Shown in pieces: positions 31,855 to 40,051 of a DNA stretch of 40,051 nucleotides (position 1 is its first letter; every line of letters begins with the position of its first letter). This DNA comes from Gammaproteobacteria bacterium (GTDB lineage: Bacteria; Pseudomonadota; Gammaproteobacteria; Ga0077536). The notes below the pieces were generated by a model, which worked only from the letters and a program-made list of their open reading frames with translations, did not search any database and had not been told where the DNA came from. Both the position numbers and the translations under genes were made by a program. Location: contig JAIEQK010000125.1 in the NCBI GenBank assembly GCA_019747795.1, positions 1 through 40,051 on the forward strand. The letters run 5' to 3'.

Positions 31855-32804
31855 TTATCGGGATTCATAACACTGCTCCGGTGTCAGGAAGCCGATCCGC
31901 TCTCGGGGACGGGTGTTCAGTCGATGCGCGATGGCATCGTAATCTGCCTGAGTGAGATGGGCCGTGCTTTGGGCTTTGGGCAGGTACTGTCGTGTGAGCC
32001 CGTTGGTGTTCTCGTTCAGTCCCCGCTCCCATGAGTGATGTGGGGTGGCGAAGTAGAAGCGCGTACCGGTCTTCTGTTCTATCTCGCGGAATTGGTGGAA
32101 CTCGGTGCCGTTTTCGGCGGTGACGGTTCGCACTGGCCTGGACTGCCTTTGTAGCAGGCGTATGACCCGCCGGTTGAGTTCGGTGGTGGTGCGTGCCTTG
32201 AGCTTGCCGATGAGGGTATAGGCGGTCTTCCGCTCGACCAGAGTGACGATGCAGTGCTGGTCGCGGTCGCCAATGACGGTGTCGATTTCCCAGTGGCCGA
32301 CCCGTGAGCGATGCCCGGCCCCCGGGGGCGTTCAGAGATGTGCCGTTTACCGGGCATGACGCCGCGGAAATCGACCGAGCGGTAACGCTTGCGCCACTTC
32401 TTGCCTGCCTGGCAGAGGTGAAGATAGAGGGTGCCGCCGTAGAAGCGGTCGTACCAGACAAAGCGGTAGATGGTCTCGTGGCTGATGGAGAAGACCCCGT
32501 GCCCGGCGAGCCAGCCTGAGATTTGCCTGAGGCTCCACTCGAGGCGGAGCAGTGAGATGACCATCTGCCAGTGGTGGTCGGCAAAGTGCCACTTCCGTCG
32601 GGCCTGGTGGCGCCGAGCCTGGGTGCGGCGAATGGCCTTGGCGGCACGATAGCCGCCATCGTTGCAAAGGTTACGCCTGACCTCGCGCATGACGGTGCTG
32701 CGATGGCGCCCGAGCTGCCGTGCAATCTCGCTGTAATTGAGACCTTGCCGAAGGAGAGCGGCGAGCATATACCTCTCCTCGGCGGTGAGCTGATGATACT
32801 TCAT
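31855..32804 (-). pseudogene. IS30 family transposase, frameshifted
   Basis: The N-terminal part (32804 down to about 32325) reads MKYHQLTAEERYML, an HTH (YSEIARQLGRHRSTVMREVRRN) and ISHETIYRFVW. The C-terminal part continues in another frame: VGHWEIDTVIGDRD, then TVTAENGTEF and NENTNGLTRQYLPKAQ. The break is in the run CCCCCGGGGG (32319-32328); one extra base there would restore a continuous protein of about 316 residues. DDE residues: Asp at 32281-32283, a Glu (32113-32115) where Asp is canonical, and the final Glu 34 residues on. Start ATG 32804 has AAGGAT upstream; an ATG at 32813 is also in frame. Confidence 0.87.
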
Positions 32805-32886
32805 CGATGGCATCCTTCTCCGGCCAGAAAAGAATGCTGATGAGTACCCCGGCTCGCCGCGTCTAATGTGACCCTGGGACGAAAGC

Positions 32887-33017: not shown

Positions 33018-33911
33018 CTATAGTCTCACCAAGACAGAACCGGATGCCGGCGCGCCATCTTCCCCTAACTCCTGTGGAACTTTCGCTGGGCTGATCTTTG
33101 GAATTCCGGCGTGCGAAGGTCCACAGGAACGATTCAAGTTCCACACAAGGCCGCAACGCTCGAAAACCACGAAAACGAAGAACCCAAGGTCGAGTTGCCA
33201 CCACTCATGCCCAAGGCGCGCACTGCGCGGGTTTGCGTGGTGGTTGTTATGCCAGCCCTCGCCAAACGTAAGAAGCGCGAGCAGGAACGAATTCTTACTA
33301 TCGTCCCCCGTGCAGTATGTGGGCTTTCCTAAGATGTGGAACAGAACTGACACTGAGAACGCCAAATGCCACACCGCCACAATCGAAAGAAGCCCCCCGT
33401 AAACAAGTACCTCTCGGCCGCCAATCTTGTATAGAAGAGCTAACAAGACCAGATTGGGGACGAAATACCATTGATTGAGCAGGACGAGCTCAGGGAAGCG
33501 CTTGAGATCGGACACTCGCCCAAGAACATTCTCGTGATATCTCTTACTAATTACCCACCCAATGTAACTCTTGAAAAACCCGTCTTGCCGGAAGCTATGA
33601 AGATCTCCTGCGCTATCCGAAAATAGATGATGATGTCGATGACCTGACGCGAATCGAATCGGAGACCGCGCCATTGTAAGCGTAGACCATACGCCGAGCA
33701 CTGCCTGGAATCCCCGCGACGTACTGCAGACGCGATGTGAAAAATAGCGATGCGCGGCGCACGTAAAACCCAACCACCTAAACCCCACCATTCCGAAAAA
33801 CCAGAAAACCGCCTCTGCCGAAAGATCTGTTGTGGCCACCAAATCGAGAGTGAGCCAATGCACCAAAAGAAAAACGATAAGTATCGAGTAATTTACCTCT
33901 GAAACTCGCAT
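33018..33911 (-). CDS. Membrane fatty-acyl desaturase (acyl-CoA/acyl-lipid delta-9 type), 297 aa
   Basis: A di-iron membrane desaturase with all three histidine boxes: HRYFSH (54-59), HRHHH (91-95) and HNNHH (221-225), the last followed by ANPRSAR as in stearoyl-CoA-type enzymes. Hydrophobic stretches at about 8-28, 33-50, 146-165 and 170-195 fit the four-helix topology. It introduces a cis double bond in an acyl chain at the inner membrane. GGAG lies nine bases before ATG 33911. It starts 26 bp after the RpfF-like gene's stop on the same strand, so the two probably form one transcript. Composition is clearly AT-richer than the flanking chromosome. The acyl carrier used is not readable from the sequence. 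Confidence 0.9.
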   Translation of the reverse strand: MRVSEVNYSILIVFLLVHWLTLDLVATTDLSAEAVFWFFGMVGFRWLGFTCAAHRYFSHRVCSTSRGFQAVLGVWSTLTMARSPIRFASGHRHHHLFSDSAGDLHSFRQDGFFKSYIGWVISKRYHENVLGRVSDLKRFPELVLLNQWYFVPNLVLLALLYKIGGREVLVYGGLLSIVAVWHLAFSVSVLFHILGKPTYCTGDDSKNSFLLALLTFGEGWHNNHHANPRSARLGHEWWQLDLGFFVFVVFERCGLVWNLNRSCGPSHAGIPKISPAKVPQELGEDGAPASGSVLVRL

Positions 33912-33937
33912 TTCAAATCTCCAGACGAAGGATTAGA

Positions 33938-34822
33938 TCAGACAACACGAATGCTCGGGGCCAATCGAAACAGGCGGCTTTGCGCCTGCGAAAGATACCC
34001 AATGGTCTTGATTTCCTTCTTTCCAAGCAGCATGGCCCGCTCCGCCCACTGCCTAGCAGTACTTCGAAGATCCGATTCTCGCACCCTAGAGAAGCGCTTC
34101 TTTTTTAGCTTAATGAACGATTTTTTTTCGTTCTGACAGACTTCCGTCGCAAGCTCCATTCCTTGACCAGTCGGCGCCAAGTAGTCCACGACCCCGGCTT
34201 CGTATAGCTCCTCCGCCGAAATCTTCGTCGCATTCCGAATCAGAGTAAGACCCAGTTCACGCGCACCTCGGCATTCCATTAATCTTGCCCCGCCCATGCC
34301 CGGGAACAAGCCAAAGAGTGCCTCAGGAAAGCCGAATACAGCCCCTTTCTCAGCAACTAGTACGTTACACGCGAGAGCTGCTTCGAACCCACCGCCCAGT
34401 GCATCGCCTTGCACCACTGCAACCGTAATCGTCTGGTCCAAATCGAATCCCGAAATGGCGTTCCAGACGGCATCAATGGAAAGATTGGCGTAATTGAAGA
34501 GAGCAGTTTCGTCACCTTTTGCCAAACATGATTGGAAGTAATCCAGATGTCCCCCGAGTGAGAAAACGTGCGGCCGGCCTGAACCATAGATCACGAAGCC
34601 GGGTGCACTTGCACCGAGACTGCGCATTTGGGATCCGAACGTTACAAGTTCCTGCAGAACCGGGACGGTGTACGAGACTGGCGCAGTGGCTCTCGATATC
34701 AGCCACGCGGTGGAAAGACGTGGCTCCACAGTGACATCAAAGTGGTCACGGGGCTTGCAGCCTGAAAGCGTTGCATGAGTGAGGTTACGTTCGACTTGTA
34801 GCGCAACTGGGGGCAAAGACAT
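33938..34822 (-). CDS. rpfF: RpfF-like DSF synthase (crotonase family), 294 aa
   Basis: A crotonase-fold protein that follows Xanthomonas RpfF block by block: HVFSLGGHLDYF, VVQGDALGGGFEAALACNV, and FGFPEALFGLFPGMGG. The two catalytic glutamates of RpfF (Glu141 and Glu161, 20 residues apart) have exact counterparts in Glu147 and Glu167. RpfF dehydrates 3-hydroxyacyl-ACP and releases the cis-2-unsaturated fatty acid signal DSF. Length (294) matches RpfF (289). ATG 34822 is preceded by CGGAG at good spacing; a GTG at 34864 would add 14 residues. The C-terminal half is more basic (KKSFIKLKKKRFSR) than usual. Nearby ACP, ketosynthase, desaturase and RpfC-like kinase genes support a signalling role. 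Confidence 0.85.
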   Translation of the reverse strand: MSLPPVALQVERNLTHATLSGCKPRDHFDVTVEPRLSTAWLISRATAPVSYTVPVLQELVTFGSQMRSLGASAPGFVIYGSGRPHVFSLGGHLDYFQSCLAKGDETALFNYANLSIDAVWNAISGFDLDQTITVAVVQGDALGGGFEAALACNVLVAEKGAVFGFPEALFGLFPGMGGARLMECRGARELGLTLIRNATKISAEELYEAGVVDYLAPTGQGMELATEVCQNEKKSFIKLKKKRFSRVRESDLRSTARQWAERAMLLGKKEIKTIGYLSQAQSRLFRLAPSIRVV

Positions 34823-35117
34823 ATCGAGTTCTCCGAGGGGTCCAAATGGAAGAGGCTCCGGCACGGCCGGATGCGGCAGCGATGCAATGGCAGTGCGCTG
34901 TGCGCGTTCTCTATTCCCAAGAAACCTCAGACAGCCCGCTTACCTGTAAAGGCGGACCAGCCTTTCGCTGTGCATCCCTTCGTTGCAGCGCATTGCGTAT
35001 GTAATATTGCCCTAAGTGGGGTGTCGCCATTGCAACGCGCATGGTCACGTGCGGCTTCTAACTGGTTCAAGGCCAGCGGCCGTTCGGTCGGTTCAGGTAG
35101 GTGGCTTGGAATTTGAA
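34823..35117. promoter_or_regulatory. Divergent intergenic region between the RpfF-like and ACP genes
   Basis: 295 bp that must contain the start signals for both the minus-strand synthase-desaturase pair and the plus-strand ACP-ketosynthase pair. It would suit a shared, coordinately regulated promoter. TTGCAG (34983-34988) and TAATAT (35002-35007) are present, but the 13-base spacing is too short for a standard sigma-70 promoter. No clear operator palindrome was found. Confidence 0.4.
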
Positions 35118-35372
35118 ATGAAAAATACTTCGAATACGGTACATTCGAGAGTTCTACGGCTGGTCGCCGAAGTTCTTGCACTGTCTGCAGAAAAGGTGAC
35201 GCAGGAGGCCCTGTTGAATGCGGACCTCGGAGCGACCTCGATGGATCTCGTCAGCATTGCCATCGCCATAGACGACGAATTCGATGTCGAGATAGATCTA
35301 GCCGCTCTACCGAAAGGAGACGTGACAGTCGCACAGGTGGTTGATCACGTCGCGGACCTAGTTGGTGCGTAG
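35118..35372 (+). CDS. Acyl carrier protein, 84 aa
   Basis: A free-standing ACP. The 4'-phosphopantetheine attachment serine is Ser41 in DLGATSMDLVSIAIAIDDEFDVEID. The usual DSL is ATSMD here, as in specialised secondary-metabolite and signalling ACPs rather than the housekeeping AcpP. Acidic helix II follows as expected. The length is normal. A short GGA lies about eight bases before ATG 35118. The 3' end overlaps the start of the ketosynthase gene. In this context it most likely carries the acyl chain for the adjacent ketosynthase and RpfF-like synthase. It needs a phosphopantetheinyl transferase encoded elsewhere. Confidence 0.9.
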   Translation: MKNTSNTVHSRVLRLVAEVLALSAEKVTQEALLNADLGATSMDLVSIAIAIDDEFDVEIDLAALPKGDVTVAQVVDHVADLVGA

Positions 35373-36735
35373 GGCACAGCGCCACCAAGTGGCGGTCACC
35401 GGCATCGGAATCGTGTCCGCGCTAGGGCACGAGATTGAGGAGTTCTGGCGAAACTGCATCGATGGCGCGAGCCCGTGTACTCCAGTCCCTTCGCACTGGT
35501 CTGTCTATTACAAAGCGAAAAGTAAGTTCTGGAGCCCCTTGCCGTTGCCACCCTATGAGACTGCAGGCATTCGCCGTATTGAGCTTCTCTCATACGACCC
35601 TGCGTGTCTAAACGCGATGTTCGCCGGCACCATGGCCCTTCGCAACGCGAATCTTGGCATTGCTCCGTACGACGAGAAGGGGAATCGATATCGTCTGCTC
35701 GATGTGGACAGAAGACGTAGCGGTGTCTTCATTGGTACCGGCTTAGGCTGTATATCCTCGAGTTTTCAAAACTACGTTCCGCATCTGTTAGCCCCTCTTC
35801 GAGGTGACCTGGAGTCCCCAGATTTCGCGACGTTACAATCGGAACAGCAGTCGGTACGCGAGGAGCTGCTTGAGTATTTGCGCGAATCCCCACGCGTATC
35901 ACAGGTCGCGAGCCTGAAGTCGATGGGTAGCTCGATTAGCGCAGCGCTGTCGATTCGCTACGGCTTCACGGGACCAAATCAGACGACCTTAGGGGCCTGC
36001 GCCGCGGGGCTTATGGCCCTTTGCCAGGGATTTGAATCCATAGCGTCCGGTCAACTTGACCTCGCGCTTGTGGGCGGCAGTGAATACTACGGGGATCGCG
36101 CGGGCGGAGTTTTCATGGCTTTTGACCGCATCAATACACTGACGACTGGTGACTGCGCCGGTAGCCCCGCCAACTGCCCGTTTGACGAGTCAAGGACAGG
36201 ATTTCTTTTCAGTCAGGGGGCGGCGTGTGTACTAGTTCTCGAGAAGCTCGACCAGGCTATCGCTCGTGGTGCACCGATACTCGCCAAGGTCCACAACGCC
36301 GGTATGTCGTCGGACGCGTACTCAATGGTCGCGATATCGGAAGAGGACAACAGTATCGAATCGCTGCTGGAGGAAGTGCTGCGCGACTCAGAGATCTCGC
36401 CGTCGGACATTGACTACGTGAACGCTCATGGGACGGGGACCGTTCAGAACGACGCGGTGGAGGCGAGAATCGTGCGACGAGTCTTTAAGGATCATCCTTT
36501 TGTGAACAGCACTAAGTCGCTCCTAGGGCATACCATCGGAGCATGCGGCGCGATCGAAGCGGCGGTGGTGATTCAGTCATTACGGACTGGAAAATTGCAT
36601 CCTAGTATGGGGCTCTGCGAACCGGTCGAGCCACTGAATTTCGTACGCTCGAGAACTGCAGCTGATATCCGGTTGGCTCTCACACAGAACTTTGGATTCG
36701 GCGGGCACAACGCCGTGGCCGTTTTTGCCAAATAG
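35365..36735 (+). CDS. Beta-ketoacyl-ACP synthase (KAS II/FabF-like), 456 aa
   Basis: A thiolase-fold condensing enzyme with the full Cys-His-His triad: Cys212 (LGACAAGLMAL), His355 (NAHGTGTVQND) and His389 (KSLLGHTIGACGA), plus Lys384. The C-terminal NFGFGGHNAVAVF is the standard glycine-rich turn. It elongates acyl-ACP with malonyl-ACP. It is about 45 residues longer than E. coli FabF. The extra sequence is mainly between the first strand-helix region and the nucleophile (HLLAPLRGDLESPDF and following). It starts with GTG 35365 (or TTG 35362) inside the last codons of the ACP gene, so translation is coupled. Not the housekeeping fabF context: no fabD, fabG or plsX nearby. Confidence 0.92.
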   Translation: MRRAQRHQVAVTGIGIVSALGHEIEEFWRNCIDGASPCTPVPSHWSVYYKAKSKFWSPLPLPPYETAGIRRIELLSYDPACLNAMFAGTMALRNANLGIAPYDEKGNRYRLLDVDRRRSGVFIGTGLGCISSSFQNYVPHLLAPLRGDLESPDFATLQSEQQSVREELLEYLRESPRVSQVASLKSMGSSISAALSIRYGFTGPNQTTLGACAAGLMALCQGFESIASGQLDLALVGGSEYYGDRAGGVFMAFDRINTLTTGDCAGSPANCPFDESRTGFLFSQGAACVLVLEKLDQAIARGAPILAKVHNAGMSSDAYSMVAISEEDNSIESLLEEVLRDSEISPSDIDYVNAHGTGTVQNDAVEARIVRRVFKDHPFVNSTKSLLGHTIGACGAIEAAVVIQSLRTGKLHPSMGLCEPVEPLNFVRSRTAADIRLALTQNFGFGGHNAVAVFAK

Positions 36736-36743
36736 CTGAGAGC

Positions 36744-39308
36744 CTACAGGCTTGCCATTGAAGCTTTGGTCTGCTGCGCAACCTCCTCCAGAGTCTTTGA
36801 GTAGTCCGACAGCCGCGCCGCTAACGATCCGGGGTCGGCTCGCTCGATCGTGCGAGCTATGGTTGCTAAGCGTGGGGCTCCAATTATTCCTGCCGCTCCT
36901 GCAAGAGCGTGCATAGCATCTCGTACCGATTGGATGTCATCGGGAATCCGTGCCTGCCGAACAGTCGCAACGTAGTGCTCTGAATCCTGGTAAAACTCTT
37001 CAAAGAAAGAAGTCTGCTCGGATTTCTCCATCAACTCCACCAGCTCTGAAATCGCTCGATTGTCGATAAGTGGAACATCGAGCTGCCGCACCAGCGCTAT
37101 CGTTTCGTCAGTCGTTCGCACGGCGGACCCGGTAGGAGCAGTTGAAGACACTCGTACGTCACTCAGATGAGACTCGATGGGTTCATACGCCACCTCCTCC
37201 ACGACACGAACAATCTCTGACGGGAGTATGGGTTTGGTTAGGAACCTTGAGATTCCTGCCGACGCCGCCTCCTCTCTCGTTTCGTTGGTGGTGTCCGCTG
37301 TTAACAGAATTATTGGAGTTGCACGGGAGGAGCTAAGGCCAGCGAAGTTATAAATCTTTGCCACCTCTATGCCGTGACGACGTGGCATGTGCATGTCCAG
37401 TAACGCTACGTCATATGGGTCGTCGTTAAGGGCAAACAGTGCCTCATCTCCATTGTCTACGAGAGTGCATGAATGCCCGGCGTTCTCTAACGCGATTTGG
37501 GCGATCTTCCGATTCGTTATGTTGTCATCAGCCACAAGAACTCTCAGCGACCTGGTCCAAACAGGTTGATTCTGTTCTTCGGGCAGTTCTCTTCCTTCTA
37601 GGGTCCCGGAGAGGGCGCAGAGGTTCGTTAGAATTCTGGCGAGCGTCTCTATCGCGACGTCCTGACTAATGAATGTGCTCGCTCCAACAGCGAGGGCAGT
37701 GGTCCGCTCTGAATTCGTTCCAACGACAGCGATCGGGAGCATGCGGGCGACATAGGTCTGCTCAAGGGCGCGAAGCACAGGGCCGATTCCTTCGGGAAAA
37801 TCGTGAGAATGAAGGATTACGGCTTGTGTGCGCGACCACAACGGAGACGAATGTTGCTGCGAAAGGAACTCGCCCAGAGCAATCGAATTCGGGTTCGCGA
37901 GACGGAGCCTAGAGTAGATTGAGCTAATCGTGGTGCATTGATTATCGTCGTTCGCAAGCAGCAGTACATCGGGTAGATCTGGCTCCACGCCACTTGAGTC
38001 GGGTGCAGGCAGACGAAAGGGCAGAGAAAATGTCACCGTGGTACCGAGACCAACTGCAGATCGCAGGGATATCTCTCCCCCCATCAGTCTTATCAGTTCC
38101 TTGGAGTAGGAAGTCCCAAGGCCCGTCCCGTCGTGCCGGCGAGTTCTAGACGTATCAGCCTGCATAAAGGGCTCAAATATCCGGGCAAGATCCCGCTCGG
38201 GGATTCCACATCCCGTGTCTTCAATGTTGAAGGTAACCGTAGTTTCGCGCGAAGTTATTGCGTCTACACTTATGCGGACAACCACCTCACCTTCGTCTGT
38301 AAACTTGACGGCGTTCCCGATGAGATTTAATAGCACTTCACGGAGATGGGTTCCCGAGCAGTAAACGGACAAGGGAAGGCTCGGGTCGATTTCGACGCGC
38401 AGGCGAACGTCCTTTGAGCGGGCCTGTGGGTGCATAACCGCTACCACTTGCCCAACAAGCTTCGCAGGAGACACCACGTCGGTGGATATCCCTATTGCGC
38501 CCGATTCGAATTTACTCAAATCGAGCACGCGGTTAATGAGTTCAAGTAGTGTTTTAGAAGACAGGTCGATGACGTCGATGTAATCGTTTGGGGTGCGGTC
38601 CTTCTGCGAGTCGCGAAGAAACTCAGCAGATGAAATGATTGCGTGCAGTGGGGTCCTTAGCTCGTGGCTCATTCGTGCCAGAAAGTCACTCTTAGCCCGA
38701 TACGCTATCTCCCTTTCCCTTACCGCTTCGTGGAGTTGCGTGATCAGAAAACCTGAGTACAGTGGTACGCACACCATGCCTAAGGCTAGCCCGGTTACGA
38801 AGGGGACTCGGTCTATCCAGAAAGGGGTGACGGAGGCCATCGTTAGGAAGCAAGCCGTCGAGATGACGACGTTAACTTTCAGGTAGTTAACACCATACCT
38901 GGTGCCGTAGCCAATTGAGGTCCAGATATAGATCGCCCAGAGACCGGCAGTGGCGCCACCGCCGATGAGTAGGACGAGGGTGACGAAAAGATTGTCGCTA
39001 ATCAGCGAAGCCGCTCGCTGCCACCGGCGCTCACTTAGACTCGAATTCCTCTGTTGTAGGTAATTAGCCCACCAACAAAGAGTGGTCGCCGAGATCATTG
39101 CTGCGCTCGAAATCCACGCAAAGTGTTTTAGGCTGATCTGCGGATCAGCCCTATACGCGAGGAAGGTCAGACCGACGAAAACGGCGTGGAGAACTACGCG
39201 GATCTTCGCTTGCGGAAGTTCGGTGAGTACCTTGCGGTCTACGGTAGATGGACTCGGACTACGCATGAGTGCCACGGCGCTGCTAGGTAGGCCTCCGTTC
39301 GAAAACAT
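36744..39308 (-). CDS. rpfC: RpfC-like hybrid sensor histidine kinase with receiver and Hpt domains, 854 aa
   Basis: Layout: five hydrophobic segments (about residues 37-52, 62-82, 104-120, 122-158, 168-190) with only short loops. Then HisKA with His215 (MSHELRTP), HATPase with Asn332 (GNAVKF), Asp364 (DTGCG) and GTGLGTS. Next is a receiver-like region (446-563) lacking the acceptor Asp, a full receiver (588-705: Asp594/595, Asp638 in LLDMHMP, Lys692), and a C-terminal Hpt with His800 (MHALAGAAG). This is the order of Xanthomonas RpfC (TM-HK-REC-Hpt) plus one extra degenerate receiver. RpfC senses DSF and phosphorelays to RpfG, which is not in this window. Convergent with the ketosynthase (8-bp gap). 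No clear ribosome-binding site at ATG 39308; ATG 39266 is an alternative. Confidence 0.88.
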   Translation of the reverse strand: MFSNGGLPSSAVALMRSPSPSTVDRKVLTELPQAKIRVVLHAVFVGLTFLAYRADPQISLKHFAWISSAAMISATTLCWWANYLQQRNSSLSERRWQRAASLISDNLFVTLVLLIGGGATAGLWAIYIWTSIGYGTRYGVNYLKVNVVISTACFLTMASVTPFWIDRVPFVTGLALGMVCVPLYSGFLITQLHEAVREREIAYRAKSDFLARMSHELRTPLHAIISSAEFLRDSQKDRTPNDYIDVIDLSSKTLLELINRVLDLSKFESGAIGISTDVVSPAKLVGQVVAVMHPQARSKDVRLRVEIDPSLPLSVYCSGTHLREVLLNLIGNAVKFTDEGEVVVRISVDAITSRETTVTFNIEDTGCGIPERDLARIFEPFMQADTSRTRRHDGTGLGTSYSKELIRLMGGEISLRSAVGLGTTVTFSLPFRLPAPDSSGVEPDLPDVLLLANDDNQCTTISSIYSRLRLANPNSIALGEFLSQQHSSPLWSRTQAVILHSHDFPEGIGPVLRALEQTYVARMLPIAVVGTNSERTTALAVGASTFISQDVAIETLARILTNLCALSGTLEGRELPEEQNQPVWTRSLRVLVADDNITNRKIAQIALENAGHSCTLVDNGDEALFALNDDPYDVALLDMHMPRRHGIEVAKIYNFAGLSSSRATPIILLTADTTNETREEAASAGISRFLTKPILPSEIVRVVEEVAYEPIESHLSDVRVSSTAPTGSAVRTTDETIALVRQLDVPLIDNRAISELVELMEKSEQTSFFEEFYQDSEHYVATVRQARIPDDIQSVRDAMHALAGAAGIIGAPRLATIARTIERADPGSLAARLSDYSKTLEEVAQQTKASMASL

Positions 39309-39493: not shown

Positions 39494-39609
39494 TCCTGGC
39501 GATGTCCTACTTTCGCATGGTGAATTCCACACTATCATCGGCGCTGAGCAGTTTCACTTCTGAGTTCGGGATGGGGTCAGGTGGTTCCTACTCGCTATTG
39601 TCGCCAGGA
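39494..39609 (-). rRNA. rrf: 5S ribosomal RNA
   Basis: On the minus strand it begins CCTGGCGACAATAGCGAG and contains the conserved core CACCTGACCCCATCCCGAAC then TCAGAAGTGAAAC. It closes with the complementary TCGCCAGGA. Length about 116 bases. The core is nearly identical to E. coli 5S, supporting a gammaproteobacterial origin. Ends are approximate to a few bases. Confidence 0.96.
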
Positions 39610-39705
39610 AAATCGGTGATCGATGCGGTCGGTGTGCGACCCATCGATTAATCTGGAAAGTCGAATTTGTACACTCGCGTCATGACCAAACGCTTGAGCG
39701 TTATA

Positions 39706-40051
<346 letters not shown>

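Follow-up and report, generated by a model that had tools for sequence, protein, structure and literature searches.

Diffusible signal factors (DSFs) are simple cis-2 fatty acids derived from housekeeping fatty acid synthesis. Can a DSF-type locus also carry a substrate supply of its own? The question is raised by positions 33018-39308 of a 40,051-nucleotide stretch of DNA (contig JAIEQK010000125.1 of a gammaproteobacterium of the Ga0077536 lineage; the whole stretch is hereafter the window), where five adjacent, intact open reading frames (ORFs) encode a desaturase, an RpfF-like synthase, an acyl carrier protein (ACP), a ketosynthase (KS) and a hybrid kinase. In known rpf loci, housekeeping fatty acid synthesis supplies the 3-hydroxyacyl-ACP (PMC4504480, PMC4542539). 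We consider it fairly likely that this island forms a DSF-type signalling cassette that provides its own substrate, in which a dedicated KS loads a dedicated ACP. The gene content, the conserved catalytic residues, the placement of the synthase, KS and sensor region, the conserved linkage of the genes and their correlated divergence are shown by the data, and from them we infer the chemical steps, the order of desaturation and the response regulator.

Pfam assigned FA_desaturase, ECH_1, PP-binding, the N- and C-terminal ketoacyl-synt domains and HisKA-HATPase-REC-Hpt across the five ORFs. The desaturase (33018..33911) and the synthase (33938..34864) lie on the minus strand and diverge from the ACP (35118..35372) and the KS (35362..36735, overlapping the ACP gene) on the plus strand, and the kinase (36744..39308, minus strand) converges on the KS. 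Both the five genes and this orientation had been claimed in a preliminary description of the DNA, and the ORF map and the domains bear them out. Divergent promoters would be expected between the synthase and the ACP (34865..35117). No sigma-70 consensus was found in the scanned region that included this interval, but the consensus is not informative for this lineage.

Conservation was evaluated in 36 genomes of the source genome's family and in a class sample of 369 genomes. The cassette synthase occurs in 11 of the 36 family genomes, from six genera, and the ACP and KS share its locus in all 11 cases, with an RpfC-like kinase at 10. At the exception (L020) no kinase was found beyond the KS, and the contig ends shortly past the desaturase. 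Outside the family, the same KS subfamily adjoins RpfF in G117, where the ACP and KS are codirectional with the synthase and the locus also holds rpfG, a GGDEF gene and rpfC, as well as in G372 and two metagenome-assembled genomes of Thiotrichaceae. The pairing of these genes in other genomes, on which the preliminary description depended, is thus found at every family locus and in two further families. Since the arrangement is conserved in other genera, a chance arrangement is excluded. This KS subfamily was present in 7 of the 369 class genomes, and all seven encode RpfF, compared with 68 of 369 overall (hypergeometric p 5.6e-6, with the caveat that related genomes are not independent). KS and RpfF are linked in six of the seven; in G165 each is close to a contig end, on two separate contigs, consistent with a break between them. 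Pairwise distances across the cassettes correlated between synthase and KS (r 0.82) and between KS and kinase (0.90), as expected if the four genes are inherited together. The conserved unit therefore consists of the synthase, ACP, KS and kinase. The desaturase, which the preliminary description had included in a five-gene unit, recurs at one other locus only. Most rpfF loci of the class survey are devoid of the ACP and KS, so the cassette is a minority architecture.

The synthase scored 209.8 bits against the NCBIfam model PRK08788, above the cut-off of 177. Its best match in a PDB sequence search was RpfF of Xanthomonas campestris pv. campestris (Xcc; 3m6m), and the next solved relatives were a further RpfF and two BDSF synthases. 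A 56-protein tree united the 11 cassette synthases in one clade (support 100/98) within the RpfF side, which was split from ordinary enoyl-CoA hydratases with support of 98/96. The AlphaFold2 (AF2) model, which has a crotonase fold and a mean pLDDT of 90, found only DSF synthases as its top structural matches (3m6m, 5fus, 6dgn, 7zq7, 3m6n; root mean square deviation 2.0-2.6), with E-values of 1e-22 to 1e-19; the next crotonase followed at 1.7e-13, roughly six orders of magnitude behind. The two catalytic Glu residues, Glu161 and Glu181, do not vary among 41 sequences and align with Glu residues of Xcc RpfF. Judged by tree and predicted structure, the synthase is of the DSF-synthase kind and stands apart from ordinary enoyl-CoA hydratases, in agreement with the RpfF-like assignment first proposed. 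We class it as a divergent relative rather than RpfF proper, because it missed the cut-off of the NCBIfam RpfF equivalog model. The source genome (G000) has a second RpfF-like gene on contig 181 (L150:2967-3902) with no ACP, KS or kinase beside it, and this paralogue is also present in G001, G002, G008 and G015.

The ACP matched Pfam PP-binding at 5.9e-8, and the Ser of its DLGATSMD phosphopantetheine site is invariant among 14 aligned ACPs. The KS retains Cys213, His356, Lys385 and His390, and these Cys, His, His and Lys positions are invariant in the aligned KSs. In its AF2 model, to which FabF structures are closest, a Cys-His-His active site is set in a FabF fold. It reached 267 bits against the NCBIfam fabF equivalog, below the cut-off of 494, and in the KS tree the window KS and its kin formed a clade of their own (100/99), apart from housekeeping FabF. 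Since the source genome encodes other FabF-type KSs, the cassette KS is additional to the housekeeping set. A self-contained polyketide-making island was set aside, as Pfam detected no ketoreductase, acyltransferase or other polyketide synthase domain.

The domain order of the kinase, HisKA-HATPase-REC-Hpt, is the RpfC architecture, and the expected phospho-acceptors His215, Asp638 and His800 are invariant. Hydropathy gave four clear segments in its membrane region, where five transmembrane helices characterize RpfC. The sensor region alone, cut before HisKA, matched RpfC of Stenotrophomonas (6e-33), Lysobacter (4e-28) and Luteimonas (7e-26), and in the same search four further ORFs of the retrieved loci, which code for kinases or regulators, gave no match. 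The RpfC-like character suspected at the outset thus extends to the sensor, which matches xanthomonad RpfC. In another locus, a GGDEF protein with an RpfC-like membrane region lies between rpfG and rpfC (L145:2992-4137) and might be an additional sensor for this signal.

How might these genes cooperate? The dedicated KS would extend an acyl chain on the dedicated ACP, and housekeeping FabG would reduce the KS product to 3-hydroxyacyl-ACP. The synthase would then dehydrate this to the cis-2-enoyl form and release the free fatty acid from the ACP by hydrolysis. The RpfF enzymes studied so far follow this course, dehydrating 3-hydroxyacyl-ACP to the cis-2 form and hydrolysing it, and they cleave many acyl-ACPs promiscuously (PMC6361424, PMC4542539). 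The membrane desaturase would place a further double bond in the chain, and the kinase would detect the signal and pass it on, by way of REC and Hpt, to a regulator that would be encoded elsewhere. With an ACP and KS set apart for the signal, the housekeeping acyl-ACP pool would be spared and the chain fixed. Because the system would load its own ACP through its own KS, the gene content suggests a tailored signal that differs from DSF and BDSF in chain length or unsaturation. Within the DSF family it would perhaps be a molecule with two double bonds, for which the 2,5-dienoic signal CDSF of that family is a precedent (PMC4542539). For genes of a membrane desaturase and a dedicated ACP occurring together, jamABC provides the precedent (PMC8406139).

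Several observations weigh against this pathway. The synthase scored 135.6 bits against the RpfF equivalog model, far from its cut-off of 550, and its branch in the tree is long (2.31 changes per column), which calls for caution. The cassette contains neither a ketoreductase nor a loading enzyme. There is no rpfG (REC-HD-GYP) near the island, and no rpfB (acyl-CoA ligase) or any additional gene between the insertion sequence (IS) element on its left and the ribosomal RNA operon on its right. The source genome has a single stand-alone REC-HD-GYP protein, which is unlinked to the island and is a candidate partner of the kinase. A search of the 36 family genomes with a true RpfG found three that passed 1e-60, and the source genome was not among them. 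Finally, the desaturase is missing from nine of the 11 family cassettes.

The scarcity of the desaturase brings up the alternative that survives best, namely that this gene is a passenger, a membrane-lipid enzyme that arrived with the island, and that the signal is made by the synthase, ACP and KS alone. The gene matched Pfam FA_desaturase at 1.1e-13 and has the His boxes HRYFSH, HRHHH and HNNHH. Its best PDB match is acyl-CoA desaturase 1 (4ymk, 5e-18), and this SCD/DesA-like resemblance to acyl-CoA desaturases, together with its presence in two of 11 cassettes only, speaks for a passenger. On the other hand, the counterpart in G007/L020, a second genus, likewise follows the synthase on its downstream side and in matching orientation, and desaturase and synthase overlap in G007 and are 26 bases apart in the window. 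The two desaturases are 63% identical, whereas the two synthases are only ~30% identical. Moreover, the KSs of both desaturase cassettes form one clade (100/97) with that of the G017 cassette, whose synthase is fused to a TauD-family dioxygenase, and their motif is altered: these three carry SLKSMGSS, SVQSMANA and SLKSMPNS, and the other eight VICQTMPN or VICQSMPN. We regard a passenger desaturase as rather unlikely; it would be compatible with the signalling cassette as proposed for the remaining four genes.

Another alternative places the ACP and KS outside signal synthesis, in a small polyketide or lipid module regulated by the kinase, and lets the synthase use housekeeping acyl-ACP. The studied RpfF enzymes do act on housekeeping acyl-ACP (PMC4542539, PMC6361424), and the synthase of the family cassettes does not share an operon with the ACP and KS. 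However, the two genes are kept with the synthase in all cassettes, including L020, which has no kinase nearby, they run in the same direction as the synthase in G117, and their KS subfamily never occurs without RpfF in the class sample. A separate module is improbable.

The island has a G+C content of 54.5%, compared with 69% for the contig, and sits between a broken IS30 element and the 3' end of an rRNA operon. The left border is a frameshifted IS30-family transposase (31855..32813, minus strand; NF033563 4.9e-22) in two overlapping ORFs. The right border is a 5S rRNA (39494..39608, minus strand; Rfam RF00001, 85.7 bits), followed by the 3' part of a 23S rRNA (39705..40051, minus strand; Rfam RF02541). 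In two genomes of the same genus the cassette synthase is missing and only another RpfF paralogue is present. Given the low G+C content, these borders and the same-genus genomes without the cassette synthase, the cassette was probably gained horizontally in the source genome. An abrupt G+C step at a mobile element, in an assembly of 331 contigs, and the absence of the cassette from the two same-genus genomes would also be compatible with an assembly chimera, that is, a 54% G+C island falsely joined to a 69% G+C contig at the IS element. This is quite unlikely, as the searched source genome has no second full-length IS30 copy that could cause a false join, the assembly is 99% complete with 0.7% contamination, and other genomes confirm the cassette itself whatever the status of the junction. 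The cassette was found repeatedly at the 3' end of an rRNA operon (L015, L016, L018, L021, L022 and, at 39494-40051, the window). At rRNA-adjacent cassettes ~100-190 bases separate the 5S gene from the synthase stop codon, and in the window the rRNA is on the kinase side. Least probable of all is a housekeeping-type acyl-ACP thioesterase or dehydratase that serves lipid remodelling and makes no signal: crotonases are versatile, sequence does not reveal activity and the RpfF equivalog cut-off was missed, but the synthase is nested among DSF synthases in the tree, its predicted structure is nearest to solved DSF synthases and an RpfC-like sensor is linked at 10 of 11 loci.

Further rpfF loci with acyl-modifying genes were collected by a contig scan. 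The window synthase alone gave no match, and an alignment of the cassette synthases gave 440 relatives, and the 80 best of these were retained; frequencies among loci found in this way are not representative. The synthase fused to a TauD-family dioxygenase in G017 (L014:7870-9828, same as L034) belongs to the same cassette type. In two other loci RpfF is fused to a haem-oxygenase-like diiron oxidase (Haem_oxygenas_2), with a regulator gene adjoining (L071:2269-4296, L089:1994-3880), and such a fusion might convert the DSF product to another compound. A second KS type is present, mostly with an ACP, in rpf loci of Sedimenticola, tubeworm endosymbionts, Thiohalobacter and Chromatiales, and in two more genomes of the class survey. 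A cyclopropane synthase-like gene lies by the KS in loci of Sedimenticola, tubeworm endosymbionts and relatives (L047, L050, L051, L052, L056, L072, L079, L097, L100, L205, L225), and a radical SAM gene lies beside the KS or ACP in two loci. Independent recruitment of the two KS subfamilies could not be shown, as an approximately unbiased (AU) test did not reject one clade for both types, represented by the window and Sedimenticola (p 0.296).

Taken more broadly, DSF loci may be small biosynthetic clusters, through which different lineages would make chemically distinct, private signals insulated from housekeeping lipid synthesis; the case for and against this proposal seems to us evenly balanced. 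It would cover a dedicated ACP and KS, or modifying enzymes fused or linked to RpfF, namely the desaturase, TauD-family dioxygenase, haem-oxygenase-like diiron oxidase, cyclopropane synthase and radical SAM protein. Since the carrier and KS package is largely kept together in several related genera, the genomic pattern suggests that some bacteria build custom-made versions of DSF-type signals. With a carrier and a condensing enzyme that accompany the synthase from genus to genus, such signals would have their own supply and room for structural variety. These loci are concrete places to seek new DSF-family molecules, and they bear on how RpfF avoids draining the cellular acyl-ACP pool.

Among known systems, the jamABC and polyyne clusters (fatty acyl-AMP ligase, membrane desaturase and ACP) likewise encode a desaturase with a dedicated ACP (PMC8406139). 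Their product is an alkyne natural product, and the island has no acyl-AMP ligase. To our knowledge, no product sensor belongs to such a cassette. The source genome itself contains a jamABC-like alkyne/polyyne cassette on contig 324 (L151:3728-12366), with two AMP ligases, two desaturases, an ACP and a carbamoyltransferase. In X. campestris, FabG2, a long-chain 3-oxoacyl-ACP reductase, is likewise a non-housekeeping fatty acid enzyme that feeds DSF synthesis (PMC5941067). It differs in that its gene stands alone, apart from other genes of fatty acid synthesis, and in that it is a reductase rather than a carrier and a condensing enzyme. The loci of Sedimenticola, tubeworm endosymbionts, Thiohalobacter and Chromatiales (L042-L100) likewise combine RpfF, RpfC, a FabF-like KS and usually an ACP. 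However, their KS is of the other subfamily (~402 amino acids) and lies beyond rpfC, whereas that of the island is divergent from rpfF, and a cyclopropane synthase and rpfG are often included. In a review of DSF systems, rpfF is accompanied by rpfC, rpfG and rpfB or by rpfR, and dspI belongs to a cluster for the metabolism of fatty acids; the parts of it that we drew on make no mention of a dedicated ACP and KS (PMC4504480). Descriptions of rpf loci with an ACP, KS or desaturase were not found in the openly licensed literature, and earlier work may exist elsewhere. The island resembles the rpfF-rpfC-rpfG system of Xanthomonas and relatives in its RpfF-like synthase, RpfC-like kinase, sensor region and phosphorelay domains; it differs from that system in having no linked rpfG or rpfB and in adding a dedicated ACP, a KS and a desaturase.

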